DNA from: Candidatus Kuenenia stuttgartensis
Lineage (GTDB): Bacteria > Pseudomonadota > Alphaproteobacteria > SMXS01
Reading direction: 5' to 3'
Assembly (NCBI GenBank): GCA_943329845.2
Contig: CALQFM020000026.1
Span: 1 to 51,412, forward strand
Length of the DNA stretch: 51,412 bases
Below the pieces are notes generated by a model. The model ran no database searches. It had not been told where the DNA came from and was given only the letters and a program-made list of their open reading frames with translations. Below are positions 6,246-51,314 of the stretch, one piece after another; position 1 is the first letter of the stretch, and every line of letters begins with the position of its first letter. Made by a program: the position numbers and the translations under genes.

Positions 6246-6310
6246 CGAACCGTCTCCCCTGGGGTTCCGAGACGGTCAGCTTGGCAGAAACCGGCGCCGC
6301 TTTCGATGGC

Positions 6311-6700
6311 CTAGTGACGCGGACCGTACTGGCGAGTCAGATAGCCCAGGATGGTCTCGCGCTCGTCCGGTTCCAGCCGCCGGTATTCGGGATAGGTCTT
6401 CAGCATCCGCTCGACCAGCGCCTCCCATTGCTCGCGGGTCTTGCTGGCGGCCTTGATGCGGGTATCAGAATGACAGGGCGCGCAGAAATAGAAGACTTCC
6501 TCGCGGCCCCGGTCAGGTTTCAGCCCGCCCCAGTCCATGGGCGCAGGGCCGGGACCGATGCGCGGTTCCGCGGGCTTGTTGTCCCACTGGTCGAGCGGCG
6601 TCTTCATGTGGTCCGGTTGACCATTATCGACCTGTGCCGCGGCGGCGCCGCTCCACGCGGCAAGTCCAAGGCCGATAACCAGCATGGGCAGCAATCTCAT
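6311..6700 (-). CDS. Small periplasmic c-type cytochrome
   Basis: 129 aa. A signal peptide (residues 1-22, ending AAAA) precedes a single haem-binding motif CAPCH in the middle, followed by a helical stretch (TREQWEALVERMLKTYPEYRRLEPDERETILGYL) typical of small cytochrome c domains that accompany dehydrogenases. GGGGAG lies before the ATG. It could accept electrons from the PQQ dehydrogenase 3 kb away, but that link is inference. No obvious distal Met ligand stands out besides the Met in VERMLKTY. Confidence 0.8.
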   Translation of the reverse strand: MRLLPMLVIGLGLAAWSGAAAAQVDNGQPDHMKTPLDQWDNKPAEPRIGPGPAPMDWGGLKPDRGREEVFYFCAPCHSDTRIKAASKTREQWEALVERMLKTYPEYRRLEPDERETILGYLTRQYGPRH

Positions 6701-38883: not shown

Positions 38884-38962
38884 AAGGGCCCCTTGACGGC
38901 GACGGCATGCCGGCCGCATCGGTTTAACAGCCATGCACCCGCTGTTGTTCCGTCTGCGGCCG

Positions 38963-40174
38963 TCAGACCAGCGCGGACTGCGCCTGGCGGGCCGGCAGGT
39001 AGCCGCTGACGATCTGGCCGTCCTTGATCACCGCGACCAGCCGCTCGGGCTTCGACAGCAGCGTGATGTCCGCCGACGGATCGCCGTCGATCACCAGCAT
39101 GTCGGCCAGTTTGCCCGGCGCGATGGTGCCCAGGTCGGCGATGCCGGTCATGGCGCCGCCATTCCTGGTCGCCCAGCGGATTACCTCGAGTGGGCTGATC
39201 CCGGCGTACTCCACGTAGCAGGCCAGTTCTTTCGCGTAGGAGCCGTGCGGGAGTTCGGCCGCGCCGTAGTCGTCGCCCGGCACGAGCTTCACGCCGGCTT
39301 CGATGGCCCGCGCAAGCATGGCGCAGGTGTGGTCCAGTGTCGGCTGGTCGAAATAACCGGAGCCACCCTTGCCGCCGCTCCTGGTCGCGACCCAGGGCAG
39401 GTAAATGCTTGGCACCATGAACGCGCCGGCCTCGGCGATGGCATCAATGCAGGCCTCGTCCAGCCCGTCCGCGTGATCGAGAATATCGACGCCCACCGTC
39501 GCGCACCGCAGCACGTTGTCGCGGCCCGCGACATGGGCGCGCGTGCGCACGCCGTGCTCATGCGCGGAGTCGACGGCGGCGCGCATTTCGGCCTCTGTCA
39601 TGTCGCGGCCGACGAACTGGCCGTGGCCTTCGCCGGCGAAAATCTTGATGACTTTCGCGCCCCGCTCGATCTCGAGCAGCGTGCCGCGGCGGAATGCATC
39701 CGCCCCGTCGCACTGGAGGACATGGGAAATGATCTGTCCACTGTCGTCCTTTACCGTCGGCGACAGCGCCCGGCTGGCCGGCACGAAGCGGGGTCCGAGC
39801 ACGTCGCCCGCATCGATGGCAGCGGCCAGTGTCGCGTCGATGGTGTCGAATGTCGCGGCGCCGACGACGCTGGTCACGCCGGCGCGCAGCGCAACCTGTG
39901 CGTTGCCCAGCGCCCAATAGGCATGCTGGACGGGATCGGCGTCACGCGTGTAACCGGGCTTGCCGTCAGGCCGGCCATAGACCGCGTGGTAATGGCCGGA
40001 GACCATGCCCGGCATCAATGTGCGGCCCCCGAGGTCGATGACCGTGTCTTCGTCACGCGGCGGCACAGGGCCGACCGCTGTGATTCGGTTGCCTTCGATG
40101 ACGACGGTCGCGCCCTTGCGGGCCGGGTTTTCGCCGTCGAGCAGGTTGGCGTTGGTCAAGATCGTGCGGGTCAT
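38963..40174 (-). CDS. Metal-dependent amidohydrolase (imidazolonepropionase-like)
   Basis: 403 aa. Metal ligands are recognisable in order: GHYH (HxH), KVIKIFAGEG, the HV of RTRAHVAG, DHADGL and the Asp of PGDDYG. The N-terminal beta domain begins ILTNANLLDGENPARKGATVVIEGNRI, and the C-terminal part ends GTIAPGKLADMLVIDGDPS. No signal peptide. It hydrolyses cyclic amides or related bonds; substrate unknown. Confidence 0.9.
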   Translation of the reverse strand: MTRTILTNANLLDGENPARKGATVVIEGNRITAVGPVPPRDEDTVIDLGGRTLMPGMVSGHYHAVYGRPDGKPGYTRDADPVQHAYWALGNAQVALRAGVTSVVGAATFDTIDATLAAAIDAGDVLGPRFVPASRALSPTVKDDSGQIISHVLQCDGADAFRRGTLLEIERGAKVIKIFAGEGHGQFVGRDMTEAEMRAAVDSAHEHGVRTRAHVAGRDNVLRCATVGVDILDHADGLDEACIDAIAEAGAFMVPSIYLPWVATRSGGKGGSGYFDQPTLDHTCAMLARAIEAGVKLVPGDDYGAAELPHGSYAKELACYVEYAGISPLEVIRWATRNGGAMTGIADLGTIAPGKLADMLVIDGDPSADITLLSKPERLVAVIKDGQIVSGYLPARQAQSALV

Positions 40175-40360
40175 CGGACATCCCCTCGCGCCGCGCGCAA
40201 GCGGCAGCCGTTTTCAGCGCCCATGCTAGTTTTTTGCCGGCGGGCGCGCAACGCCCGCACGTCAACAAGCGCGGCGACACGGAGATGGCCTTGTGGTTTG
40301 ATGGCCGGCGGACCCATCTTGTCGAGGGCGACATCGCCAACAACCAGGCAGCCGCTTCTC

Positions 40361-41740
40361 ATGCACCACGAACCGCCCGCCATCATCCCGGGAATCGTCT
40401 GGCCGCCGCTGTCCGGCATCGGCGCCCGGTACGCCGCCAGGAACCTGGAGCTGCTTTCCGAGCTGCAATGGCTGTCGCCGGCGGCGCTGCGCGAGGGCCA
40501 GTTCCGCCAGCTGGACCTGCTGCTGCGGCATGCGGCGCGCCACAGCCCCTATTACGCCAGTCAGCTGGCCGACTGCGGCTGGACGGCGTCGGATGAAATC
40601 GGCGCGTTTCCGCTGGAGCGCCTGCCGATCCTCACGCGGGCAGTGCTGCAGGACCGGGGTCCGGAACTGCTCTGCGGCTGGACGCCGCCGGAGCACGGCC
40701 ATCGCTACGAAGCCTCGTCGTCAGGATCGACCGGTCGGCGGGTGACCGTCACCAAGACGGCGTTGGTCGGCGAGCTGTTCAACGTACTCACGCTGCGCGA
40801 CGCGATCTGGCAGAACCGCGACGTGACGGGACGGATCGCCGTCATCCGATACCTCCACGATCCCGACATCGCCCGCGACCCAGGAGGCGCCGTGGCGGAC
40901 AACTGGGGCTCGCCCTTTGTCGAACAGTACCGGACCGGCACCGCCGCCATGCTGGATATCCGGCACGACGTCCAGCTCCAGGCGGAATGGCTGCGACGCC
41001 AGAATCCCGACTACCTGATGACCTTCCCCTCCAACCTGCACGCGCTCGCCCAGCTGTTTCTGGAACGGGGATGGTCGCTTCCCAGGCTCAAGGAAATCCA
41101 GACCCTGAGCGAGGTGCTGTCGCCCTCAATCCGGGCGCTGGCGGCGCAGGCCTGGGGCGCCAGGGTGACGGACATCTACAGCGCCCAGGAAGTGGGCTAT
41201 ATCGCCCTGCAGGCGCCGGATGGTCCTCACTACCTGGTGCAGTCCGAGGCCGTCATCGTCGAAGTGCTGGACGACCAGGGCCGTGCCTGCGGCCCGGGCG
41301 AGACCGGCCGCATCGTCATCACCCAGCTCCACAATTTCGCCACGCCGATCATCCGCTACGACATCGGCGATCTGGGCGAAGTGGGGAACGCCTGCGCCGG
41401 CGGCCGCGGCCTGCCCGTGCTTATCAGCATCGGCGGCCGGGTCCGCAATCTGGTCTGCACGCCGGATGGACGGAAATACTGGCCCGCCGTGCCGCTCGAC
41501 GTCTTCAAGGCCGTGGCGCCGGTGCGTCAGTTCCAGCTGGTCCAGAAGTCGCTGACCCTGATCGAGGCGCGCATGGCGGTCGCGCGAACGCTGTCCGGGG
41601 CTGAGGAAGCCCAAGTGGTGCGGCTGATGCACGAAGAGCTGGGCTACCCGTTCGAGGTCAGCTTCACCTATGTGGACGAGTTGCGGCGCAATCCGTCCAA
41701 TGGGAAATTCGAGGAGTTCAAGTCCGAACTGCTTGAATAG
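40361..41740 (+). CDS. Adenylate-forming ligase, phenylacetate-CoA-ligase (PaaK)-like
   Basis: 459 aa from ATG 40361; the ribosome site is weak and ATG 40301 is an in-frame alternative. The P-loop-like SSSGSTGRR (about 119-127), the DIYSAQEVGYIAL core and PIIRYDIGDLGEV support a PaaK-type AMP-forming ligase. It would activate a carboxylic acid as acyl-AMP and possibly acyl-CoA. The 186 bp before it hold no clear gene. It opens the plus-strand arm of an unusual cluster with lipoyl carriers and 2-oxoacid dehydrogenase E1 genes. Confidence 0.8.
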   Translation: MHHEPPAIIPGIVWPPLSGIGARYAARNLELLSELQWLSPAALREGQFRQLDLLLRHAARHSPYYASQLADCGWTASDEIGAFPLERLPILTRAVLQDRGPELLCGWTPPEHGHRYEASSSGSTGRRVTVTKTALVGELFNVLTLRDAIWQNRDVTGRIAVIRYLHDPDIARDPGGAVADNWGSPFVEQYRTGTAAMLDIRHDVQLQAEWLRRQNPDYLMTFPSNLHALAQLFLERGWSLPRLKEIQTLSEVLSPSIRALAAQAWGARVTDIYSAQEVGYIALQAPDGPHYLVQSEAVIVEVLDDQGRACGPGETGRIVITQLHNFATPIIRYDIGDLGEVGNACAGGRGLPVLISIGGRVRNLVCTPDGRKYWPAVPLDVFKAVAPVRQFQLVQKSLTLIEARMAVARTLSGAEEAQVVRLMHEELGYPFEVSFTYVDELRRNPSNGKFEEFKSELLE

Positions 41741-41868
41741 CGGTCGCTTGCCGATGGCGATTGGCTGAGGGCCGGGAAGGCCGGCGCTGACGCGCTGGTT
41801 GACCGCCCATCGGGCGTCGCGGATAGTTCGATGCTCGTCGATGTCTCCCGCAACCGGACCTTGTCTTC

Positions 41869-42234
41869 ATGATCCTGTCAGTCGCGCTGCCGCAGATGAA
41901 CCCAGATATGCAGTCGGCCATCGTCGAGGCCCTGTACGGCGTCGAGGGCCGCCTGCTTCCTCCGGGCTCCAAGCTGATCGACCTCAAGGTGGACCTGAGC
42001 CTGGCCGTTGCCCATGACTGCCCGCCGGTGACCTATCACCGGATCGCGCTGCGCGACCGGGCCTGGCTGCGCCGGGTGCTGGTGCGAAGGGGCGAGGAGA
42101 TCCCGGTCGGCGCGCCGCTGCTGATCCTCAGTTCCGAGCCGGACGAAGATCCCGACGCGCCCGCCGAACGCGCCGCGCGGACCAGCGTCGCCGGCATCAT
42201 GCCCCAGACCGACTGGTGGGGCATGGAAGGCTGA
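41869..42234 (+). CDS. Stand-alone lipoyl/biotinyl-like carrier protein (divergent)
   Basis: 121 aa. The all-beta pattern resembles a lipoyl domain: ALPQMNPDMQSAIVEALYGV at the start, PPGSKLIDLKVDLS with a candidate modified Lys40, and VRRGEEIPVGAPLLILSSEPDE as the second half. The middle is longer than a normal lipoyl domain and the DKA triad is changed to LKV, so lipoylation is uncertain. Its stop and the next start overlap (TGATG). The call is by pattern and could be wrong. Confidence 0.6.
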   Translation: MILSVALPQMNPDMQSAIVEALYGVEGRLLPPGSKLIDLKVDLSLAVAHDCPPVTYHRIALRDRAWLRRVLVRRGEEIPVGAPLLILSSEPDEDPDAPAERAARTSVAGIMPQTDWWGMEG

Positions 42235-43583
42235 TGCCAAGCCTGACCATGTCGCTGGGGCCGCTCGCGCCCACCGGCTGCATGATCTGGCGGTCCGGCA
42301 TCCAGTGGCTTTGTCACGACGGGCAGATCTGCGCCGCGGGCGACGTGATCGCCTACTGCAATATCGGCGTCGCGCCCGCCGACCGGCCCGCCCGGACGCT
42401 GGAGCCGTTCGCCCGCGAAGCGCGCGATTTCCAGGCGGCCTTCGTGCTGCGTGCCGGCGGCCGGGTCCGTCATGGCCGCGACAGCTCGATGGGCGGCTTC
42501 ATCGACCAGCTCGCGCACTACCTGATCTGGGAGCCGGACTTTGTGTTGGGTACCCTGGAGACCGAGCGGCCGGACGAGGCCGGGCCGCTGCGCGTGCTGC
42601 TCGGCGCGGGCCGCCGGGCTTTCGAGCATGCTGAGGTCCGCGTGGGATTTCTCACCGGCTGGCATGACCGCAGCCGCGTCTGGTGGGCCGACGGCGGCGC
42701 CGTCGAAGGCAGCCTGCTCAGCCTCGGGAGCTGCGAGGCGACCGCCGCGATCCGCGGCAAGCGCCTCGATCTCACGGAAATGCTGACTGGCCTGCCGCGG
42801 CCGGCGCAGGTGGTCATGGTTCCCGACGACGTGCTGGTGCCCAGTGCCAGAGTCGTGCGCGAGCAGATGGCGCGCACGCCGAGGCAGGTCTCGGAAATCG
42901 CCGAGGAGATGGCGGCGAGCTTTCCGCTTTCCTCGCCGTCGACGGCGTCCGCGGACTGGATCTTCGGCGGCGCGTTGCTGGGCGCGCTGACCCGCTCGCC
43001 GGTGACCGAGCCGAACCACGTGCTGACCCGCGCCGGCGTCCAGCGGATCGACCGGCCCGACGCCGTGGTCATGTCGCTGGTCGCCGAGCCGCGCCGGGTT
43101 TTCGTCCACCGTACGCTGGGCTACACACTCAGCCTGCATGATTACCGGATCATGGAAGCCAGTCCGGCGATCCGAGGCTGGCTGCGCGCCCGCTTCGAGC
43201 CGCTCGACCGGGATCCCGGCGACATAAGGCGGGACTACGAGCAGCTGCTCGATGAACTGCCGGACCCGGCAGGCACGCAGCTGCTGGTGATGAACCAGAT
43301 GTCCAGTTCGGGATATGAGGATTTCCTGAGCTACGTGCAGTTCGACCCGCCGATCGGTCTGACTGTCGGCTCGGTGAACGCCAAGGAAAGGAACCTGATG
43401 CTGCACGACCTGGCCGCGGCCCGCGGAATCGCCATCGTCGATGTGGATGCCATCGCCGCGGACATGGGCGCCTCCCGCCACCTGCCGGATGGCGTCCACC
43501 AGAGCGGCGCCATGCAAGCGGAGGTCCGGCGGGAAATCCTCCACATCCTGGCGTCGAGGGGCGTGCCCGGCTTTACCGCCTAG
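42234..43583 (+). CDS. Large protein with lipoyl-like N-terminus and SGNH-like C-terminus
   Basis: 449 aa from ATG 42234, which overlaps the upstream stop (TGATG). Residues about 15-55 (MIWRSGIQWLCHDGQICAAG, VIAYCNIG) look like a lipoyl/biotinyl half domain. A long unassigned middle follows. The C-terminal 120 residues show LLVMNQMSS, VDVDAIAADMG and DGVHQSGAMQAEVRREIL, which resemble the late blocks of SGNH hydrolases (DxxH as DGVH). I do not recognise a named family. It ends on a CTAG shared with the minus-strand operon. Confidence 0.6.
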   Translation: MPSLTMSLGPLAPTGCMIWRSGIQWLCHDGQICAAGDVIAYCNIGVAPADRPARTLEPFAREARDFQAAFVLRAGGRVRHGRDSSMGGFIDQLAHYLIWEPDFVLGTLETERPDEAGPLRVLLGAGRRAFEHAEVRVGFLTGWHDRSRVWWADGGAVEGSLLSLGSCEATAAIRGKRLDLTEMLTGLPRPAQVVMVPDDVLVPSARVVREQMARTPRQVSEIAEEMAASFPLSSPSTASADWIFGGALLGALTRSPVTEPNHVLTRAGVQRIDRPDAVVMSLVAEPRRVFVHRTLGYTLSLHDYRIMEASPAIRGWLRARFEPLDRDPGDIRRDYEQLLDELPDPAGTQLLVMNQMSSSGYEDFLSYVQFDPPIGLTVGSVNAKERNLMLHDLAAARGIAIVDVDAIAADMGASRHLPDGVHQSGAMQAEVRREILHILASRGVPGFTA

Positions 43584-43885
43584 ACGACTTCGAAGCTCAC
43601 GGCCAGCTCGGCCAGTTCGGCGGCATTATCGGGAACGGGCTCGTCGGCGGCATCGCTGAAGACCGCGAGCGGCGCGCCGATCCGCTGCCAGGCTCCTTCC
43701 TTGCACAGGATGGCCCGAAGCGTGCTGGCCCGTCCTGCGCGGACCTCGATGAGCGCCTTGTGCGTCTCGAGCTCCACCACCAGATCGCCGGGCGCAAACG
43801 CCGATCCCGGACCGCCGTGCCATTCGAGGATGCGCACTTCCTCCACATCCTCCACCGGACCCGGAACCAATAGCTGGTAGATCAT
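43580..43885 (-). CDS. Stand-alone lipoyl-domain protein
   Basis: 101 aa. The lipoyl hairpin is well conserved: PGDLVVELETHKALIEVRAG with Lys43 in the place of the lipoylated DKA lysine, then GAWQRIGAPLAVFSDAADE. There is no peripheral-subunit-binding domain or acyltransferase domain, so this is a free carrier, not an E2. AGGGAG precedes the ATG. It is the last gene of the E1 operon, 70 bp after the E1 beta stop. Confidence 0.85.
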   Translation of the reverse strand: MIYQLLVPGPVEDVEEVRILEWHGGPGSAFAPGDLVVELETHKALIEVRAGRASTLRAILCKEGAWQRIGAPLAVFSDAADEPVPDNAAELAELAVSFEVV

Positions 43886-43955
43886 GAGGACTCCCTTTTT
43901 GGGGTGATCTTAAGTGCGGTCAAGACGCGGCCAAAGCGCAAATCCTGCTCGGGTG

Positions 43956-44948
43956 CTAAGGCTTCCCCCGCAGCAGGCGGCAAACCGCGGCGACGATCCT
44001 GTCGGCGTCGGGCACAACCGCCGCTTCCAGCACCGGATTGGATGAGACCGGCGCAGGGGCGGCGCCGACCCGCGCTGCGCGGATTCCGGGCACGGCCTCA
44101 TGCACCCGGAAGGCGATCTCGGCGCCCACGCCGCAAGTGAGTTGCCCTTCCTCGACCGTCACCAGCGCCCCGGTCCTGCCGGCCGACGCACAAAGCGCGG
44201 CCGTGTCGAGTGGCGCCAGGGTGCGGAGGTCGATCACCTCGCAAGAGATTCCCTCGGTCTCCAGCCGGTCCGCCGCCGCCAGCACGGGCACCATCATCCA
44301 GGAATGTCCCACCAGCGTGACATCGCCGCCGGCGCGCTCGACGCGGGCCACGCCCAGCGGTACGCAGGATTCCGACACCGGCACGTGGCCCGCCATCGGA
44401 AACAGCCGCTTGTGGTCGATGTAGAGCACGGGGCCGTCCTCGCGCAGGGCCGACTTCAGCAGACCGTAGGCGTCGGCGGGCGTCGACGGCGCCACGACCT
44501 TCAGGCCCGGCACCCCCATCATCCATGCTTCGATGCACTGGGAGTGCGCGACGCCCTGGCCCTTGGCGCCCGCCGTCGTCTTGACCACCAGGGGCGCGTG
44601 GAGCTGGCCGCCGGTCTTGTAGCGTAGCTTGGCCGCGTAGTTGACCAGCGGGTCCAGGGCCAGCATCAGGAAGTCCATGTAGGTGATGCTGACCAGCGCC
44701 CGGCCGCCCGCCGCCGCATATCCGGCGCCGACGCCGACCATGGCCCCCTCGGCGACCGGCATGTCGCGCACCCGGCCAGAACCGAACCGGGCGTGCAGAC
44801 CGTCGAACTCCCGGTACGGCCCCCCGAACGCGCCGATGTCCTGTCCCATCAGCACCAGGCCCTCGTCGCGGCGCATTTCCTCGCCCAGCGCGCGGACGAT
44901 GGCCTCGCGGAAGAACAGTTTGGTCGTGGCGTCCGGTTCAGCCGACAT
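43956..44948 (-). CDS. 2-oxoacid dehydrogenase E1 component, beta subunit
   Basis: 330 aa, a normal length, from ATG 44948 (MSAEPDATTKLFFREAI), overlapping the E1 alpha end by 11 bp. The transketolase-type pyrimidine domain is clear (GLVLMGQDIGAFGGPYREFDGL, PVAEGAMVGVGAGYAAAGGR, ITYMDFLMLALDPLVNYAAK) and the C-terminal domain holds DLRTLAPLDT and VTVEEGQLTCGVGAEIA. With E1 alpha it should form a thiamine-diphosphate heterotetramer that decarboxylates a 2-oxo acid or splits a ketose. Confidence 0.94.
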   Translation of the reverse strand: MSAEPDATTKLFFREAIVRALGEEMRRDEGLVLMGQDIGAFGGPYREFDGLHARFGSGRVRDMPVAEGAMVGVGAGYAAAGGRALVSITYMDFLMLALDPLVNYAAKLRYKTGGQLHAPLVVKTTAGAKGQGVAHSQCIEAWMMGVPGLKVVAPSTPADAYGLLKSALREDGPVLYIDHKRLFPMAGHVPVSESCVPLGVARVERAGGDVTLVGHSWMMVPVLAAADRLETEGISCEVIDLRTLAPLDTAALCASAGRTGALVTVEEGQLTCGVGAEIAFRVHEAVPGIRAARVGAAPAPVSSNPVLEAAVVPDADRIVAAVCRLLRGKP

Positions 44949-45870
44949 TGAGCAGCACATCCGCGGGCGAGGGAAAGGCCGCGTCGTCGGCGAACCGGTT
45001 GGCCGCCGCGACAACGATGTCGATCTCGCGCGTCATCTCGGCGACCTGCGTCCGATCAACGACGCCCGACCTCATCAGCACCTCGGTATAGCCGCGGATC
45101 GGGCAGCGGTCGCGGGCCGCGGCGACCTCGTCCCTGGGCCGGCTCTCGCGCGATGACGTCGAATGGGCGGTGAAGCCGTAGGACAGGCATTCCAGGAACG
45201 CCGGACCGCCCCCCGCCCTGACCGTCGCCGCCAGGGCCTGCGCCGCGTCCCGCACCGCCTGCACGTCCATGCCGTCGACCGTCATGCCCCGGATGCCGAA
45301 CGGCGCGGCCAGGTCCGACAGACGCGCCGGGGCGAGCGCCGCCGCGCGCGGCGTCGATACCGAATACTGGTTGTTGTCGCACACCAGCAGCAGGGGCAGC
45401 CGCCAGATGGCAGCAATGTTGAGGGTCTCGTGCAGAGCCCCCGATCCGCACGCGCCGTCGCCGAACATGCAGGCCACGAGGCTGGAACGCCCCTCGCCCT
45501 GCAGGCGCAGGGCAACACCAGCCGCGACCGTAAGGTTGCCGCCGACGACGGCATGGGCGCCGAAGAAGCCGCGGGCAGGCGCGGCCATGTGGCCGCGTCC
45601 ACCGCGTCCCGAACAGTATCCCGCTTCCTTGCCCAGCAACTCGGCGAGCACCCGGTTCGGATCGAGCCTTCGGGCCAGCGCCGGGCCGATCGAGCGGCCG
45701 CTGCACAGCAGCTGGTCGTCGGGCTCGAGCGCGGCGCACAGGCCGACCGACACCGCCTCCTGGCCGCTCGACAGCAGCTGGAAGCCGTGATCCTTCCGGG
45801 CCATCAGGCTGGCCTCGAAGGCTCTGATCAGCATCATGGAGCGCAGCAGCGCCGGATCGGGGAGGGTCAT
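44938..45870 (-). CDS. 2-oxoacid dehydrogenase E1 component, alpha subunit
   Basis: 310 aa. The thiamine-diphosphate motif is GDG (137-139) followed by Asn166 in LLLVCDNNQYS. YCSGRGGRGHMA and GAHAVVGGNLTVAAGVALRL are typical of acetoin/pyruvate-type E1 alpha. The ATG overlaps the stop of the upstream SGNH-like gene (ATGA). No E2 acyltransferase or dihydrolipoyl dehydrogenase is encoded here. Confidence 0.94.
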   Translation of the reverse strand: MTLPDPALLRSMMLIRAFEASLMARKDHGFQLLSSGQEAVSVGLCAALEPDDQLLCSGRSIGPALARRLDPNRVLAELLGKEAGYCSGRGGRGHMAAPARGFFGAHAVVGGNLTVAAGVALRLQGEGRSSLVACMFGDGACGSGALHETLNIAAIWRLPLLLVCDNNQYSVSTPRAAALAPARLSDLAAPFGIRGMTVDGMDVQAVRDAAQALAATVRAGGGPAFLECLSYGFTAHSTSSRESRPRDEVAAARDRCPIRGYTEVLMRSGVVDRTQVAEMTREIDIVVAAANRFADDAAFPSPADVLLNVG

Positions 45871-46553
45871 GCCGGCGCCGTCCGCGTGGATGCAAAATGT
45901 TGCTGGAGGCGCCGGGTCAGGCCATCGAGGCCGCCATGCAGCTGCCGCGCCCTCTCCAGCCGGTCCTCGGCGACCAGGTCGTCGAGGCCGGCCCCGAGCA
46001 CCGCGGCGGCGATGATGTCGCCGGCAACCTCCGCCCCCAGCCGGCCTTTCAGCGTGTAGTCCGTTGTCACAAGGTGCGCGCCGAAATGCGCCAGGGTCCG
46101 GTCGATGTCGATGACGTTGGCGCCGGTGGCCTGCGACAGCTCCGCCGCCAGCAGGTTGAGGCGCCGGATGCGTTCCAGCACGCCGTCACGCGTCCAGCCG
46201 GGCGGCGCCGACTCCACGGCCGGGACATTTCGGAATACCGTGCAGAAGAACACCGGACGCGACGTTTCCGCGACGAGCACGGCCGCCTGCCGCCGCCAGC
46301 GCGCGGCAACGGCGGCCCAATCCGCGTGGGCCCGGCCTGCCTCGTTGAGCAGCGAGATGATGATGACGCCCGGTTCTCCGGCGATCTCGCGCAGCTCCAG
46401 CGACTTGCGCAGGTTCAGCCTGATCTGGTGGTTGACGCCTGACGCGGCGCCCAGCAGCTGCGACAGATGCCGCGCCGCGGCCTGGAACGGCGGATGCTCG
46501 GCCGACAGCGGCGCAAGAACGTCGAGGTCGATGCGCGGCTCCACCTCGGTCAT
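45867..46553 (-). CDS. SGNH-like hypothetical protein
   Basis: 228 aa, no signal peptide. Features that recall SGNH hydrolases: a hydrophobic strand followed by Asn (VIIISLLNEAG), a second core strand with Asn (PVFFCTVFRNVPAVE), and ANVIDIDRTLAHFGAH then a long helix (AEVAGDIIAAAVLG). The N-terminal GDS block is not evident and no DxxH is clear, so it may be a non-catalytic relative. It overlaps both neighbours by 4 bp, which ties it to the E1 genes. Confidence 0.5.
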   Translation of the reverse strand: MTEVEPRIDLDVLAPLSAEHPPFQAAARHLSQLLGAASGVNHQIRLNLRKSLELREIAGEPGVIIISLLNEAGRAHADWAAVAARWRRQAAVLVAETSRPVFFCTVFRNVPAVESAPPGWTRDGVLERIRRLNLLAAELSQATGANVIDIDRTLAHFGAHLVTTDYTLKGRLGAEVAGDIIAAAVLGAGLDDLVAEDRLERARQLHGGLDGLTRRLQQHFASTRTAPA

Positions 46554-47605
46554 GCCGCGTCGCCCTGCCAGAATTCCGCGCCCATGGCGCGCGCGCCGAT
46601 GGCGCGCCGGGCAACGTCGTAGTCGAGACCAGTCGCGCCGGCCGCCGCGCGCTTAAGCTCGGGAAGGGAGCGGATGCGGTAGGCTTTTGGGACGGGCGAT
46701 GCGTGCGAAAGGCTCGCCCAGAATACCGTCAGGAGCGCCACGGCCGGATGCGGATGGGACCGCAGGAAGGCGTCCTCCCAGGCGGTGTCCTGCAACGGAT
46801 CTCGCCAGCCGCTGCGGTGGATCATGTGATAGCTGCGCGCACCGGTCCCCGGCACCAGATGGCCGCCCCGCTTTACAAGCCGCAGGGCCAACTCGCGGTG
46901 CTCATTGATGTCGATGGCGTCGTTGAAGCCGCCCGCGTCCAGGAACTCGGCGCGCCGCACGGAAAGATTGCTGCCGCTGGCCGCGCTCCAGAGCACCCCG
47001 CAGTCCGGTGCGTTCGCCAGCGCGTCCATCTCAAGCTCGAACAGCCGCCGCGGGCCGGCACCGGGATAGATGCCACGCTCGGCCCGGCCGTCTATGGCTG
47101 CAAAGCCCAGCCGGACCTGTTCCATGGTGACCCGCATCCGCTCGATTTCCGCCGCCGGGCGGCGGGCGACCGCTTCGGCCTTGTCCGGCCATGGAGCGCC
47201 CGACTCCGGGTCGCGAAACAGCCGGGTGCCGCGCAGGTGCATGGTCTCGCCGCGCACGATGACGCCAGGCGTCCGTGCGTGCAGCGCGGCGTGCACGGCC
47301 AGCGCCGCAGGCCCGAACAGCGTGTCGCCGTCCTGGAACAGCAGCACCTCGCCGCGCGCCGCCCTGGCGCCGGCGTTGGACGCGGCGGAACGGCCTTGCG
47401 CCACCTGATGGCGGACGCCCACGATCGGCAGTGCGCGGGCCATTTCGGCGACGACCTCGGCCGTATGGTCGGACGATCCGTCATCGACCACGACGATCTC
47501 GCAGTCCGCCGCCTGGCATTCCAGCGACGCCAACGTCAGCCGAAGGCGGTCCGCCTCGTCCCTGGACCGGATCACCACGCTGACAAAGGGCGTCCTCGCG
47601 GTCAC
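46550..47605 (-). CDS. Glycosyltransferase family 2
   Basis: 351 aa from GTG 47605, which overlaps the upstream stop (GTGA). GT-A fold signatures: VSVVIRSRDEADRLRLTLAS, VVVDDGSSDHT, AASNAGARAARGEVLLFQDGD (DxD-type), and later GSNLSVRRAEFLDAGGF followed by DINEHRELALRL. A cytoplasmic NDP-sugar transferase is implied. It sits in the middle of the SGNH/E1 operon and converges with nothing; its acceptor is unknown. Confidence 0.9.
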   Translation of the reverse strand: MTARTPFVSVVIRSRDEADRLRLTLASLECQAADCEIVVVDDGSSDHTAEVVAEMARALPIVGVRHQVAQGRSAASNAGARAARGEVLLFQDGDTLFGPAALAVHAALHARTPGVIVRGETMHLRGTRLFRDPESGAPWPDKAEAVARRPAAEIERMRVTMEQVRLGFAAIDGRAERGIYPGAGPRRLFELEMDALANAPDCGVLWSAASGSNLSVRRAEFLDAGGFNDAIDINEHRELALRLVKRGGHLVPGTGARSYHMIHRSGWRDPLQDTAWEDAFLRSHPHPAVALLTVFWASLSHASPVPKAYRIRSLPELKRAAAGATGLDYDVARRAIGARAMGAEFWQGDAA

Positions 47606-48375
47606 TGGACCACACCGAGATCGTGCAGGATCGAGACAACCTCCTCGGCTACCAGCCGGCAGCCATCGGCGTTCAGGTGCAGGGTATCCAACTTGAGGCG
47701 GTCGGAGCCATGACGCGCGACGATGGCGTCCACGTCGACCACGGAAATGCCGGTCTCCTGGGAAAGCTCGATCAGGCCCAGATTGAACCGCCTGATCCGC
47801 GTCGACAGCATGTCGTCCAGGCCGCTATGGCAGTGAACCCGGTCGCCGGGCACAACCGACGAGACGTTGTAGACGAGGATTGGCGCCTCCGACCTGCACC
47901 GCAGCCGCTCGACGATGGTCCTTAAATTTGCCATGGACCGGTCCGCGTCGAGAGGGCGCACCCGCTCGAAGTTCGACCGCAGCCATGCCAGGTCGTCGGG
48001 CGCGCACTCTCCAAGGTCCCCCGGATACAGCAGATAGCCTTGCTCGCGGTGACGCAGCAGGTTGGTGGCGATGTCGGGCTGAATGGACAGGACGGTCGCA
48101 TCGGCTTGCGCATCGAACACCGCCTGGCTGAACTGGGCTTGGGCCGGATAGGCGCCCAGCGTCAGCCGGCGCTCGGCCAGGTCGGCCGGCGTCTCGCCAT
48201 CGGACGCAAGCAGGGCGTCGGATCGGGTCCAGGTTTCATGGTGCAGGCGGATCACCGTGTCCGGGAAGCGTTCGCGCACGATCTCGTTCACGCCGTTCCA
48301 GCGCACCGTTCCGTTCAGGCGCAGCGAGTGCAGCGAGTCCCGGACGTCGAGATTCCCCTTGAGAAACAAGTTCAC
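47602..48375 (-). CDS. SGNH-like protein, first gene of the E1 operon
   Basis: 257 aa from GTG 48375 (product begins with the conserved-looking NLFLKGNLDVRDSLHS). The N-terminal GN.DVRDSLHS may be a variant of the SGNH GDS block. A central ILVYNVSSVVPGD strand carries an Asn, and the C-terminal DTLHLNADGCRLVAEEVVSIL carries a DxxH (DTLH) as in SGNH block V. Cytoplasmic, with no signal peptide. Probably an esterase or acyltransferase; substrate unknown. Confidence 0.6.
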   Translation of the reverse strand: MNLFLKGNLDVRDSLHSLRLNGTVRWNGVNEIVRERFPDTVIRLHHETWTRSDALLASDGETPADLAERRLTLGAYPAQAQFSQAVFDAQADATVLSIQPDIATNLLRHREQGYLLYPGDLGECAPDDLAWLRSNFERVRPLDADRSMANLRTIVERLRCRSEAPILVYNVSSVVPGDRVHCHSGLDDMLSTRIRRFNLGLIELSQETGISVVDVDAIVARHGSDRLKLDTLHLNADGCRLVAEEVVSILHDLGVVQ

Positions 48376-48492
48376 GCGGCGCACAGCTTGGCCTTGCCCG
48401 TTACGTTCCCGAACGAACTGACCATAACAAACCCGCGGCCTCCAGTTAAATCCCGACAAGCCATCATTCGGACAACCTATCCTGCCGGCACC

Positions 48493-49791
48493 ATGAACCG
48501 CTTGGGAACCGCCAACGACCCCGGTACGCGCACCGTCGAGGAAGCGCGGATCGTCGACTTCCTGCTTCTCGGCGGCTGGGCCCACCAGCTCCGGTCTGGC
48601 GGGCGCCAGGCGGCCGAGGGCGAGATCCGGGCGGCGCTGCGGCGCTGGGCTGGCGCCGGGCTGCCCGTGGCGCCAGATTCCGGCGGCGAGGCGCGCTACG
48701 ACCCGGTCGAGGTCCTGAACTTCATGAAGTCCGCCGGTATTGACGGAGGCGATCCGTTCTGGGCGCGACGATATCTGCGCACCGGCAGGCGGTTCATGCT
48801 GGAGCAGGATGCGGACTGGGCGCGGACCGGCGCTCCTGGCGCACCATACACGCTGCCGCCGCGGCGCTTCACCGTCGAATTCCGGCGCACCATCAGCCTG
48901 GCGCCGTTCGAGCCCGGCGCGCCGCTGCGGCTGCGACTTCCCCTGCCGCTGGAAGGGCCGGGCCTGAGCGATCTGCGTCTCGACTTGGACGCGGCCGACG
49001 CGCCCGTGGCGTTCGGCGTGACGCCCGGCCGGCTGGAAGCGAAGCTGCCCGCACCCGAATCACGGCAGTTCACTTTAGGCTACCGCGCCAGCTTCACCGC
49101 GCGGCCCTATGTGCCGGGCGGGCAGGCCGGCCGCCTGGACGCCGCGGAAGCCGATCTCTACACCCGTCCGGCGGAAGGCCTGATCCGCGTCACGCCGCGG
49201 GTGGCCGCGCTCGCCGAGGACCTGGCCGGTCGCCTCGCAGATCCTGAGGACGCGGTCCGGGCCTTCTGGGATCACCTGATGGACCGCATGATGTGCGGCG
49301 CGGTCCACTACCACGACATCGATATGGCCAATCCCATGGACTGGCTGCTGGATCATGGCTGGTACGACTGCGAGATCGGCGCCGCGCTGCTGGTTTCGTT
49401 GTGCCGCTCGCGCGGTATTCCGGCGCGCATCGTCAGCGGCTACATGCTCTATCCACCCGCGCCAACCTATCACTTCTGGGCCGAGATCTGGCTGGACGAC
49501 TGGGTGCCCTTCGACCTGCTCTCGTGGGATCTGTCCAGCGGCGGGCGCGACCCGGCCTGGCGCTACATTTTCGCCGGCGCGCTGGACTACCGCATGCCGG
49601 TGCAGCGGCTTCCCCGGCACTTCGTTGGCCCGATGAGCGTCCGCCTGCCGCCGCGCTGGCACATCCTGGCCAGTGCCTTGCCGCATGGCATCCGCATCGG
49701 CATCCACGACATCGCCTCGGGCGAGGCCGCCTTCAGCGACGACGTCTCGGTGAGCATCTACCAGGCGAGCGAGAACGCCGCGCCGTTGTAG
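48493..49791 (+). CDS. Transglutaminase-like protein (protease-fold) with intact triad
   Basis: 432 aa from ATG 48493; ribosome site weak. Transglutaminase-core motifs: WYDCEIGAALLVSLCRSRGIPARI (Cys293), TYHFWAEIWLDDW (His327) and VPFDLLSW (Asp341). The N-terminal third is unassigned, with a beta-rich region before the core. No signal peptide, so it would act in the cytoplasm as a cysteine amidase, peptidase or acyl-transfer enzyme. It is transcribed away from the SGNH/E1 operon from a 117-bp gap, and its 3' end overlaps the next GT2 gene by 34 bp. Confidence 0.85.
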   Translation: MNRLGTANDPGTRTVEEARIVDFLLLGGWAHQLRSGGRQAAEGEIRAALRRWAGAGLPVAPDSGGEARYDPVEVLNFMKSAGIDGGDPFWARRYLRTGRRFMLEQDADWARTGAPGAPYTLPPRRFTVEFRRTISLAPFEPGAPLRLRLPLPLEGPGLSDLRLDLDAADAPVAFGVTPGRLEAKLPAPESRQFTLGYRASFTARPYVPGGQAGRLDAAEADLYTRPAEGLIRVTPRVAALAEDLAGRLADPEDAVRAFWDHLMDRMMCGAVHYHDIDMANPMDWLLDHGWYDCEIGAALLVSLCRSRGIPARIVSGYMLYPPAPTYHFWAEIWLDDWVPFDLLSWDLSSGGRDPAWRYIFAGALDYRMPVQRLPRHFVGPMSVRLPPRWHILASALPHGIRIGIHDIASGEAAFSDDVSVSIYQASENAAPL

Positions 49792-50543
49792 CCGTGGACG
49801 GCCACCTCGCCCGGACCCAGGTCGAGCGGCGCCATCCCGGCGCGCAGCTCCGCCTCGCGGCGCATCAGCAGGCCCCGGGACAGGGCAAGCCGGCCGGCCA
49901 GCATGCGGTGATGTTCGTCCGGCCACGAATTGCGCCCGTGGCTGACATAGACGTAGAGATGCGGCGCACCGCCCAGGATCTCGACCCGGCAGGTTTCGGC
50001 GAGCTGGCGGGCGACGACCAAATCCTCGCCCAGCCGGGCTTCGTCGCCGCTCTCCGGATAGCGGATGCCAGCCGACACCCGGCACATCAGGCTGCCGGGA
50101 AAAGCCCCGGCCTCGGTGGCCTGCCAGTTGGTGCAGTAGAGCGTCCGCTCGTGCGGGTAGAACTGCATGACCTCGCACAGGAACACGGCGTCGGCGTCCC
50201 GCAGCGCGTCGAGCTGCCGGGCGAGTCGATCCGGATGGTAGATGTCGTCGTCGTCCCACTGGCAGACGATCTCGCCGCGGGCGTGGGCCAAGCTGGCATT
50301 GCGCAGCGCGCCCAGCGGCAGCACGCCGGGCGGCTCGACGATGCGGATGGCCGGGTCGGCCAGCGCCGCCACATGGTCGCGGATACGCGCGGCGATCGCG
50401 CCGTCTCCGCCGTTCAGGACGAGGACCAGTTCCCGGTCGGCGTGGGTCTGACGCCGGAAGCCGTCGATGCTCCGCACGAGCATGGCAAACCGCTCCGCAA
50501 CCGGAAGCGTGACGAGCAGGCAGCTGACCAGAGGGCCGGACAT
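49758..50543 (-). CDS. Glycosyltransferase family 2-like protein
   Basis: 261 aa. GT-A features: VSCLLVTLPVAERFAMLVRS, ELVLVLNGGDGAI, and GEIVCQWDDDDIYHPDRL with the acidic metal-binding cluster. It converges on the transglutaminase gene with a 34-bp overlap. It lacks the canonical DDGS of the other GT2 here and may be a divergent member. The 273 bp after its start hold no recognised gene. Confidence 0.85.
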   Translation of the reverse strand: MSGPLVSCLLVTLPVAERFAMLVRSIDGFRRQTHADRELVLVLNGGDGAIAARIRDHVAALADPAIRIVEPPGVLPLGALRNASLAHARGEIVCQWDDDDIYHPDRLARQLDALRDADAVFLCEVMQFYPHERTLYCTNWQATEAGAFPGSLMCRVSAGIRYPESGDEARLGEDLVVARQLAETCRVEILGGAPHLYVYVSHGRNSWPDEHHRMLAGRLALSRGLLMRREAELRAGMAPLDLGPGEVAVHGYNGAAFSLAW

Positions 50544-50816
50544 GCGCCGATCATAACCTGTGGCCTGCGCCCGGACTTGTGCAAACTCTGCCCGCGATCC
50601 TGCGAAGGGTTCGATGGTTGGCTCGCCTGGAACTTGGCTCCCAGATCAGTCACGACCCAAATCCAGGCAAAATCCCGAACTCAGCGAAAGCGCTCCTGTT
50701 GTCGTTTCTGCGCGGTCGCATCTCCGATACACTCTGATGGCGAGAACGTTGGGGACGGGAGTCCGGAGATTGGGCGAGGGACGCTCATCTGGACGCGCCA
50801 AATCGGGAGGGCATCG

Positions 50817-51314
50817 ATGAAAAAGCTGAAGGTGAACGGGCGCGCTGTCGAGGTCGATGCCGATGGAGACACCCCGCTGCTTTGGGTGCTGCGGGAGCAA
50901 CTTGGCCTTACCGGCACGAAATATGGGTGCGGGGTTGCGCAGTGCGGCGCCTGCACGGTGCACATCGCGGGCAGATCGGTCCGCTCCTGTGTCCAGAAGC
51001 TGGCCACGATCGCCGACGGAGATGAAATCACCACCATCGAAGGCCTGTCGAAAGACAGCCGGCACCCGGTCCAGCAGGCCTGGGCGGAACTGGACATTCC
51101 GCAATGCGGCTATTGCCAGCCCGGGATGATCATGGCCGTCGCCGGCATGCTCAACCACAATCCCGATCCCAGCGACGAGGACATCGACCTGGAGATCACC
51201 AACATTTGCCGGTGCGGCACCCTGGCGCGCGTGCGAAAGGGCATCCACCTGGCCAAGACCAAGATGTGCAGGGCGGTGACAAAACCAGCCACTGGAGCGC
51301 CGGCGTTGTGCTGA
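50817..51314 (+). CDS. [2Fe-2S] small subunit of a molybdenum hydroxylase (IorA/CoxS-like), 3' end altered
   Basis: 165 aa. GGGAGG lies before the ATG. The plant-ferredoxin-type cluster is KYGCGVAQCGACTVHI with a later Cys in VRSCVQKL, and the second cluster is in CGYCQPGM and ICRCGT, so both [2Fe-2S] sites are intact. Family members transfer electrons from a molybdopterin large subunit and are normally followed by its gene. Here the last residues (about KPATGAPALC) and the stop at 51312 appear to come from the left end of an insertion sequence, so the natural C-terminus is replaced and the large subunit gene is displaced. Confidence 0.88.
   Translation: MKKLKVNGRAVEVDADGDTPLLWVLREQLGLTGTKYGCGVAQCGACTVHIAGRSVRSCVQKLATIADGDEITTIEGLSKDSRHPVQQAWAELDIPQCGYCQPGMIMAVAGMLNHNPDPSDEDIDLEITNICRCGTLARVRKGIHLAKTKMCRAVTKPATGAPALC

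Follow-up and report, generated by a model that had tools for sequence, protein, structure and literature searches.

The DNA studied here is a window of 51,412 nucleotides (contig CALQFM020000026.1 of assembly GCA_943329845.2, deposited as Candidatus Kuenenia stuttgartensis and placed by GTDB in the Alphaproteobacteria), and the element in question is a group of nine genes at positions 41869-49791 in which both subunits of a 2-oxoacid dehydrogenase-type E1 are found next to a free lipoyl carrier. Besides E1alpha, E1beta and the carrier, termed lipo, it contains a predicted lipoyl-fold protein that lacks the lipoyl lysine (lipA_noK), three proteins of SGNH type (lipSGNH, SGNH1 and SGNH2), a family 2 glycosyltransferase (GT2a) and a transglutaminase-like enzyme (TG), and together these nine genes form a conserved module (Table 1). 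An earlier reading of the same DNA, made from the letters only and called here the sequence-only reading, had described two convergent arms with mostly 4-bp overlaps on the minus strand, and the genes are indeed present at those places. Overlaps of 4 bp join SGNH2 to GT2a, GT2a to SGNH1 and SGNH1 to E1alpha, E1alpha and E1beta overlap by 11 bp, and a gap of 70 bp separates E1beta from lipo. A Pfam scan recognised no family in the frames at 41869 and 42216.

Table 1. Genes and features of the module and its surroundings (positions in the window).
Feature	Position	Strand	Remarks
lipA_noK, stand-alone lipoyl-fold protein (predicted) without lipoyl lysine	41869..42234	+	invariant Cys51 (CPP motif), enlarged hairpin loop
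lipSGNH, SGNH-fold domain (predicted) with GxC replacing GDS; N-terminal part may be lipoyl-like	42234..43583	+	
lipo, free lipoyl carrier, motif VELET[H/Y]KA in most rows	43580..43885	-	PF00364 2.5e-7
E1beta subunit (ATG at 44948)	43956..44948	-	PF02779/PF02780 (Transket_pyr 2.2e-35)
E1alpha subunit	44938..45870	-	PF00676 (E1_dh) 1.3e-57
SGNH1, degenerate SGNH protein without invariant His	45867..46553	-	PF13472 E 0.03, under cut-off
GT2a, family 2 glycosyltransferase	46550..47605	-	PF00535 8.7e-20
SGNH2, mostly KGNxD instead of GDS	47602..48375 (start approximate)	-	PF13472 (Lipase_GDSL_2) 1.2e-7
TG, transglutaminase-like enzyme	48493..49791	+	PF01841 (Transglut_core) 2e-14
GT2b, accessory family 2 glycosyltransferase	49758..50543	-	PF00535 3.5e-13
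PaaK-like AMP ligase	40361..41740	+	distant PaaK-type AMP-binding protein
Stretch missing from three congeners, ligase gene included	40258..50690	.	blastn of window against congeners

To follow the module, segments of the window were combined into one query, and a collection with one genome per species (84,980 species) was scanned once. The scan returned 37 loci, of which 36 were kept as module relatives; the 37th (L089) was left out as a weak match through TG only. As the scan patterns were strict, 36 loci are a lower bound. The tblastn match covers the E1 segments in 35 of them, and one further locus (L053) was recovered through TG. Many of the loci are interrupted by contig ends, and as lipSGNH frames of a few short loci pass for SGNH2 under the 50-bit limit, the sounder count is that over the 17 loci with room, meaning more than 3 kb on the left and more than 2 kb on the right. 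Each of the nine genes is present in all 17, GT2b in five and the ligase in none. Over all 36 loci the numbers are 30 for TG, 32 for SGNH2, 29 each for GT2a and SGNH1, 33 for E1alpha, 35 for E1beta, 32 each for lipo and lipSGNH, 31 for lipA_noK, nine for GT2b and none for the ligase. Because all nine core genes recur in every locus with room, their linkage is more than chance. Six ordinary E1-E2 operons served as controls; the queries for E1 and lipoyl proteins found matches in them, those for SGNH, GT2 and TG did not. Other recurring families around the module reach at most six loci.

Co-occurrence of the neighbours in other genomes, which the sequence-only reading had named beforehand as a test of its claim, was thus found, and the second glycosyltransferase (GT2b) that it had placed in the flank is an optional gene. 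TG, taken there for a flank as well, is a core member, and the adenylating ligase that had been counted into the cluster was rejected as a member, as it has no match in any of the 36 loci. The commonest gene order, SGNH2-GT2a-SGNH1-E1alpha-E1beta-lipo facing lipSGNH and lipA_noK, is identical to that of the window. TG and sometimes GT2a are placed elsewhere in some loci. Three of the four Gluconacetobacter loci have TG, lipA_noK and lipSGNH on the same strand, at a distance of some kilobases in the downstream direction. The titles of the locus records name Gluconacetobacter (four species), Methylocapsa, Methylocella, Aureimonas, Novosphingobium, Acidocella, Caulobacter, Falsiroseomonas, Erythrobacter, Burkholderiales and Nevskia, taxa which we take to belong to the Alpha-, Beta- and Gammaproteobacteria.

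For the analysis of individual residues, rows with less than 80% query coverage or less than 50 bits were dropped. This left 32 rows for lipo, 31 for lipA_noK, 32 for lipSGNH, 33 for E1beta, 29 for E1alpha, 15 for SGNH1, 27 for SGNH2, 25 for TG, 27 for GT2a and eight for GT2b, and the row of the window was added to each. In E1beta, Glu67 and His135 are invariant (34/34 rows) and align with the same letters in solved pyruvate dehydrogenase (PDH) E1beta chains. E1alpha holds invariant His94, His106, Asp138, Asn167, His236 and Ser237 (30/30 rows); all of these save His106, which stands opposite an Asn, are matched by identical letters in PDH E1 chains of known structure. These residues, some of which we presume to be catalytic, include the Glu, His and GDG..N signature of the thiamine diphosphate (ThDP) site of the 2-oxoacid dehydrogenase type, and the best sequence matches of the E1 in the PDB are pyruvate dehydrogenase E1 chains. 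In a tree with twenty ordinary E1alpha sequences, the 30 sequences of the module group together in a single clade (support 100/99). The carrier lipo is a separate protein of 101 amino acids with an invariant Lys43 (33/33 rows), and each of the 32 other copies has a reading frame that ends just past the lipoyl domain. Judging by these residues and those of TG described below, the catalytic parts of E1, lipo and TG look alive. Note that one module copy (L088) has two different lipoyl carrier genes, at 1256-1615 and 6266-6664.

An E1 and a free lipoyl carrier without an E2 core or an E3, as claimed in the sequence-only reading, is what we find. Four E2 queries detected no E2 core in the window or in the 36 loci, while the same queries were positive in all six control operons. 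With two E3-type queries, no E3 came up in the window or in any of the 36 loci, the E3 query having matched its paralogue (L095) elsewhere in the genome; the control operons are likewise devoid of E3 in the stretches compared. The E2 and E3 gene pair that might have lain just outside the locus was thus found neither in the window nor in the 36 loci. This leaves the question whether the module is an ordinary 2-oxoacid dehydrogenase that borrows its E2 core and its E3 from other parts of the genome and stands among chance neighbours. The genome does have four E2 cores (PF00198), on other contigs (C25, C54, C83 and C12), and C25 carries the sole lipoamide dehydrogenase above the TIGR01350 cut-off. 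Three of the four E2s, those on C25, C83 and C12, however share their contig with an E1 of their own, and both the joint presence of nine genes in 17/17 loci and the frame of lipo, closing right behind the lipoyl domain in copy after copy, speak against such an arrangement, which we hold to be very unlikely. In one of the control operons (L050 9724-13359, G648) the E2 core match is in another frame than the protein with two lipoyl matches; the lipoyl domain of this operon is the best lipo match among the six controls and also matches lipA_noK.

The sequence-only reading had counted two lipoyl-type carriers, and this stands for lipo but not for the protein encoded at 41869, lipA_noK, in which no Lys is found at the lipoyl site and a Cys, Cys51, is invariant instead (32/32 rows). 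Its affinity to lipoyl domains is nevertheless apparent. The lipA_noK profile aligns with that of the lipo family at a probability of 97.9 (E 4e-13), with a gap around the lysine motif, and in a comparison with PDB sequences (E up to 1) all 12 entries listed are PDH E2 or X proteins, the best at E 0.056. The AlphaFold2 (AF2) model, with a mean pLDDT of 90.5, has PDH lipoyl domains as its nearest solved folds (2q8i_B, Z 11.9, 87 residues aligned, root-mean-square deviation (rmsd) 2.2), and as evidenced by this model lipA_noK is of the lipoyl/biotinyl fold. Cys51 is part of a CPP motif in the loop between the strands 35-42 and 54-61. An invariant Cys in a lipoyl fold might also point to sulfur or redox chemistry, with E1 as a source of electrons, and free lipoyl carriers outside E2 do exist, such as those that bind lipoate in the sHdr pathway. 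The nine core genes, however, include no member of an Hdr, sulfurtransferase or iron-sulfur family, and no other recurring family is found in more than six loci, so that we regard this explanation as highly improbable.

The neighbouring lipSGNH was modelled with AF2 at a mean pLDDT of 84.9 and a pTM of 0.87. Structure prediction, which the sequence-only reading had proposed for its SGNH-like proteins, yields an SGNH fold for the C-terminal part of this one (residues ~156-449), with the best comparison to 4q9a_A (Z 11.7, 182 residues aligned, rmsd 3.2); the match to PatB (7tjb; Z 11.1, 181 residues aligned, rmsd 3.2) is to be counted as tied, as are all rows within 1 Z. The family PF13472 was found in 20/32 members. 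Instead of the GDS serine nucleophile, which is not present in any of the 32 rows displayed, lipSGNH has a GxC motif, and its Cys, Cys167, is invariant (33/33 rows). The structure alignment is made up of 31 of the 32 lipSGNH sequences (L065 left out) and the window, and a smaller alignment of 25 of these 32 rows. In the alignment with 1yzf, residues 158-449 of the model lie on residues 1-192 of the chain, and given the position at which we presume the GDS motif of 1yzf to stand, the Cys is placed at the serine site of SGNH enzymes. A DxxH motif has its His in 32/32 rows and its Asp in 30/32. A Foldseek search with the whole model listed lipoyl domains at probabilities of 0.98-0.99, with no aligned range given, and the N-terminal part, residues 1-155, may be another lipoyl-like domain. 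PDB sequence searches with all of lipSGNH and with its N-terminus gave nothing credible.

SGNH1 and SGNH2 are of a different kind. For SGNH2 (258 amino acids) the sole Pfam match is PF13472, found in 28/28 members, but there is no Ser at the GDS site in any of 28 rows, and no His is invariant across the 16 rows of SGNH1. The picture of SGNH-like proteins in the sequence-only reading is wrong or incomplete for SGNH1 and SGNH2, which have no SGNH nucleophile or catalytic His and, from their sequences, may be non-catalytic partners. A PDB sequence search for SGNH2 gave nothing credible. In a sample of the class the sole matches were those of its own genome and an FkbH-like protein (G246, L013 1051-2922), whose N-terminal part of the FkbH_N type (PF21211) is a distant relative. 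Plasmid records gave one distant relative as well, a stretch with 25.5% identity (E 5e-19) at the C-terminus of a protein that is annotated as a methyltransferase, for which Pfam recognises a methyltransferase only, on plasmid p3 of Planktothrix agardhii. Genes for an AMP-binding protein, an acyl carrier protein (ACP), an FAD oxidoreductase and this methyltransferase follow in a row there (L052 12226-15535), perhaps another carrier-based acyl pathway for glycans, and this setting hints at an SGNH2 subfamily that works with carrier-bound acyl groups. Sulfotransferase and glycosyltransferase genes are also found in that region.

TG has the residues of an active enzyme of its type, with Cys293, His327 and Asp341 invariant in 26/26 rows. 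Note that TG genes may be multiplied, with four in tandem adjoining the module in L059 (185-5792) and two each in L063 and L080. As to the surroundings, the module of Gluconacetobacter diazotrophicus (L081) has a GT1, two GT2, a Polysacc_synt flippase and a UbiA-HAD protein as neighbours, and Gluconacetobacter johannae (L075) an additional protein with AAA_31 and a Wzz match below the cut-off. The copies of Novosphingobium flavum and Erythrobacter are followed by a relative of GT2 type and by a second protein that by eye is glycosyltransferase-like, while the copy in the window and several others stand alone. The product of the module is likely a glycan or glycoside. In Methylocapsa palsarum, a gene for an NAD-dependent epimerase is located between SGNH1 and E1alpha (L058 8569-9522). 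An anti-phage defence system was considered and rejected; PADLOC, run on ten proteins, produced one short partial match, to TG (E 0.0008, 34 residues).

The E1 could also be a carboligase, which would join an acyl anion and a keto sugar into a branched sugar, the lipoyl proteins then serving only for scavenging or regulation. E1 pairs occur in sugar pathways, and AviB1/AviB2 of avilamycin biosynthesis have reportedly been proposed as such a carboligase. The presence of GT2a in every one of the 17 complete copies and the epimerase gene inside the Methylocapsa copy would suit this scheme; a carboligase, however, needs no lipoyl carrier, and yet the lysine of lipo is retained without exception, so that we consider it improbable.

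The module is rare and not fixed in place. Among the 95 other genomes of the set of relatives, one congener (G004) matches it, with GT2a, SGNH2, TG and GT2b on a contig of 5.7 kb (C180) that agrees with locus L053 over the 3,000 bases compared. L053 is titled Rhizobium sp. Q54 MAG, and as it agrees with the contig of a congener of the window's genome, the genus name in that record title may be doubtful. In three congeners (G001, G002 and G004 itself) blastn located the flanks of the window ~831, 258 and ~825 bp apart with no module between them; the flanking stretches, 38943-40257 and 50691-51264, have 84-87% DNA identity there. G005 retains the left flank, the right one being outside the stretch compared; in G003 and G006 no more than a 54-56% relative of the left gene was found. 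As the flanks lie close together without the module in three congeners, it was either gained here or lost by the others. No direct repeats of at least 9 bp were found near its edges.

Wider samples agree with this rarity. No further copy was found among 384 other genomes of the class, with the best four candidates per genome scored, and only one weak SGNH match among 397 others of the phylum (best six candidates scored). E1alpha exceeded the limit in a phylum sample at ten places in nine other genomes, with at most 43% identity, and the six of these places that were examined (five genomes) all are E1-E2 operons. In 615 plasmid records all E1alpha matches are below 60% identity, the best being 42% among the 40 of the 615 that were listed; for lipSGNH and TG there was no match in plasmid records, and five scans of viral contigs gave no relatives.

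Taken together, these data lead us to propose, as a tentative reading to which we give slightly less than an even chance, that the module acts as a split acyl-donor system without E2, which decorates a glycoside by means of a thiol relay via lipSGNH, TG or both. E1alpha and E1beta would decarboxylate a 2-oxo acid with ThDP, or cleave a related donor, and reductively acylate the lipoyl lysine of lipo. From the dihydrolipoyl thioester the acyl group would then pass to a protein thiol, where in a common complex the E2 core would hand it to coenzyme A (CoA), and the likeliest receivers would be Cys167 of lipSGNH and Cys293 of TG. It would finally be transferred to the product of the glycosyltransferase, while the docking or holding of the partners would fall to lipA_noK, SGNH1 and SGNH2, the last two being poor in nucleophiles, and the housekeeping E3 of the cell would re-oxidise the dihydrolipoamide. 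That lipo is lipoylated, that an acyl group is transferred and in this direction, what that group and its acceptor are, and that a cellular E3 is used, we infer from nine linked genes, from residues that do not vary, from loci devoid of E2 core and E3, and from the folds predicted for lipA_noK and for the C-terminus of lipSGNH. The scheme put forward in the sequence-only reading, in which a free lipoyl carrier is charged by E1 and its acyl group is brought to a glycan or small molecule by an SGNH enzyme, is compatible with this sequence evidence. It is favoured by the invariance of the E1 residues and the lipoyl lysine, by the Cys that lipSGNH has in the nucleophile position, and by a GT2 in every complete copy.

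A number of points weigh against this proposal. The whole mechanism is built on sequence and models, and E3 must be borrowed. Foldseek found no PDB match for lipSGNH at E 0.001 or better, and the Asp of its DxxH motif is missing, by eye, in L067 and L073. The lipoyl-like nature of its N-terminus receives weak support from sequence, with values of 7.9 and 16.8% in hhalign and a Biotin_lipoyl_2 match in one of 25 members at E 0.23 and one of 32 at E 0.005. SGNH1 and SGNH2 have neither a recognisable nucleophile nor His, and the roles given to them are therefore guesses. Finally, no polymerase or flippase gene is found in the DNA examined of the window copy and several others, so that a glycan as acceptor is not secured.

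A more specific version of the proposal, in our estimate rather unlikely, is a thioester relay made of proteins only that would replace CoA and ACP, with the acyl group moving from the lipoyl lysine of lipo to Cys51 in the hairpin of lipA_noK, a lipoyl fold that would have changed from lipoyl-Lys to Cys, to Cys167 of lipSGNH as a Cys-type SGNH acyltransferase, or to both, and from there to the sugar. If true, this would be a new logic for acyl carriers, in which the tasks of E2 are divided among a carrier, a Cys paralogue and an acyltransferase of unrelated fold.

The proposal could also hold with another donor. If this were a ketose phosphate, E1 would take up a two-carbon ketol unit, like the E1-type pairs of quinocarcin, naphthyridinomycin and dnacin biosynthesis, and lipo would carry a glycolyl-type group, all else remaining as proposed. 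The two-component transketolases DinS/DinU of a non-ribosomal peptide synthetase (NRPS) pathway are a precedent; in the passages available of that source (PMC7570522) they are assigned, like NapB/NapD, to form a hydroxyethyl unit from xylulose 5-phosphate. The separate E1alpha clade and its distance from the other E1 proteins of the phylum sample would fit such a change of substrate. Set against this, the E1 has pyruvate dehydrogenase chains as its closest PDB sequences, no ACP, KASIII or NRPS family of Pfam is found among the module proteins of the window, and the substrate is not readable from sequence. A ketose donor thus appears unlikely to us.

If the split acyl-donor reading is true, a core reaction of central metabolism, the conversion of a 2-oxo acid into an acyl-lipoyl group, has been turned into a biosynthetic acyl donor that does without E2 core, CoA and acyl carrier protein. 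A role would be given to a lipoyl fold without lysine and to an SGNH protein of the Cys type, and Gluconacetobacter, Methylocella, Novosphingobium, Aureimonas and others would make a glycoside or glycan not yet described. As several of the loci are from named strains, the module is testable.

The sequence-only reading had called the cluster undescribed-looking, and in the open-licence literature searched we likewise found no description of a module of E1, lipoyl proteins, SGNH proteins, TG and GT2, nor of the combination with a lysine-less lipoyl paralogue; the passages available on Lipocone and on biohopanoids are unrelated to it. Single traits do recur in known systems. The E1-like pairs of quinocarcin, naphthyridinomycin and dnacin biosynthesis share with the module an E1-type enzyme diverted to biosynthesis but, according to the passages available, feed an ACP and an NRPS, while the module has SGNH proteins, TG and GT2 in their place. 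The polyoxypeptin cluster has, in orf8-10, a protein of 82 amino acids annotated as E2 next to E1beta and E1alpha (PMC3943440), so that a short carrier beside an E1 may not be unique to the module. Unlike the latter, this E1 pair is set among polyketide and NRPS genes with a KSIII, and the passages available mention no SGNH, GT2 or TG partner.

On the side of the SGNH proteins, FkbH has an N-terminal domain (PF21211) distantly related to SGNH2. FkbH itself contains a HAD domain and has an ACP partner, whereas SGNH2 stands alone, with neither a fused HAD domain nor an ACP. With the acyltransferases of the PatB/AlgX type, lipSGNH has the SGNH fold in common but a Cys in place of the Ser. SGNH acyltransferases pair with MBOAT proteins according to the abstract of PMC12148441, whereas no MBOAT family of Pfam is found among the module proteins of the window. 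The closest relative in terms of chemistry is the pyruvate or 2-oxoacid dehydrogenase complex, with which the module shares the E1 families, the letters of the active site and a lipoyl domain with its lysine. It differs from that complex in a locus without E2 core and E3, in a lipoyl domain that is a protein of its own, and in the lysine-less lipoyl paralogue that accompanies it in every complete copy.

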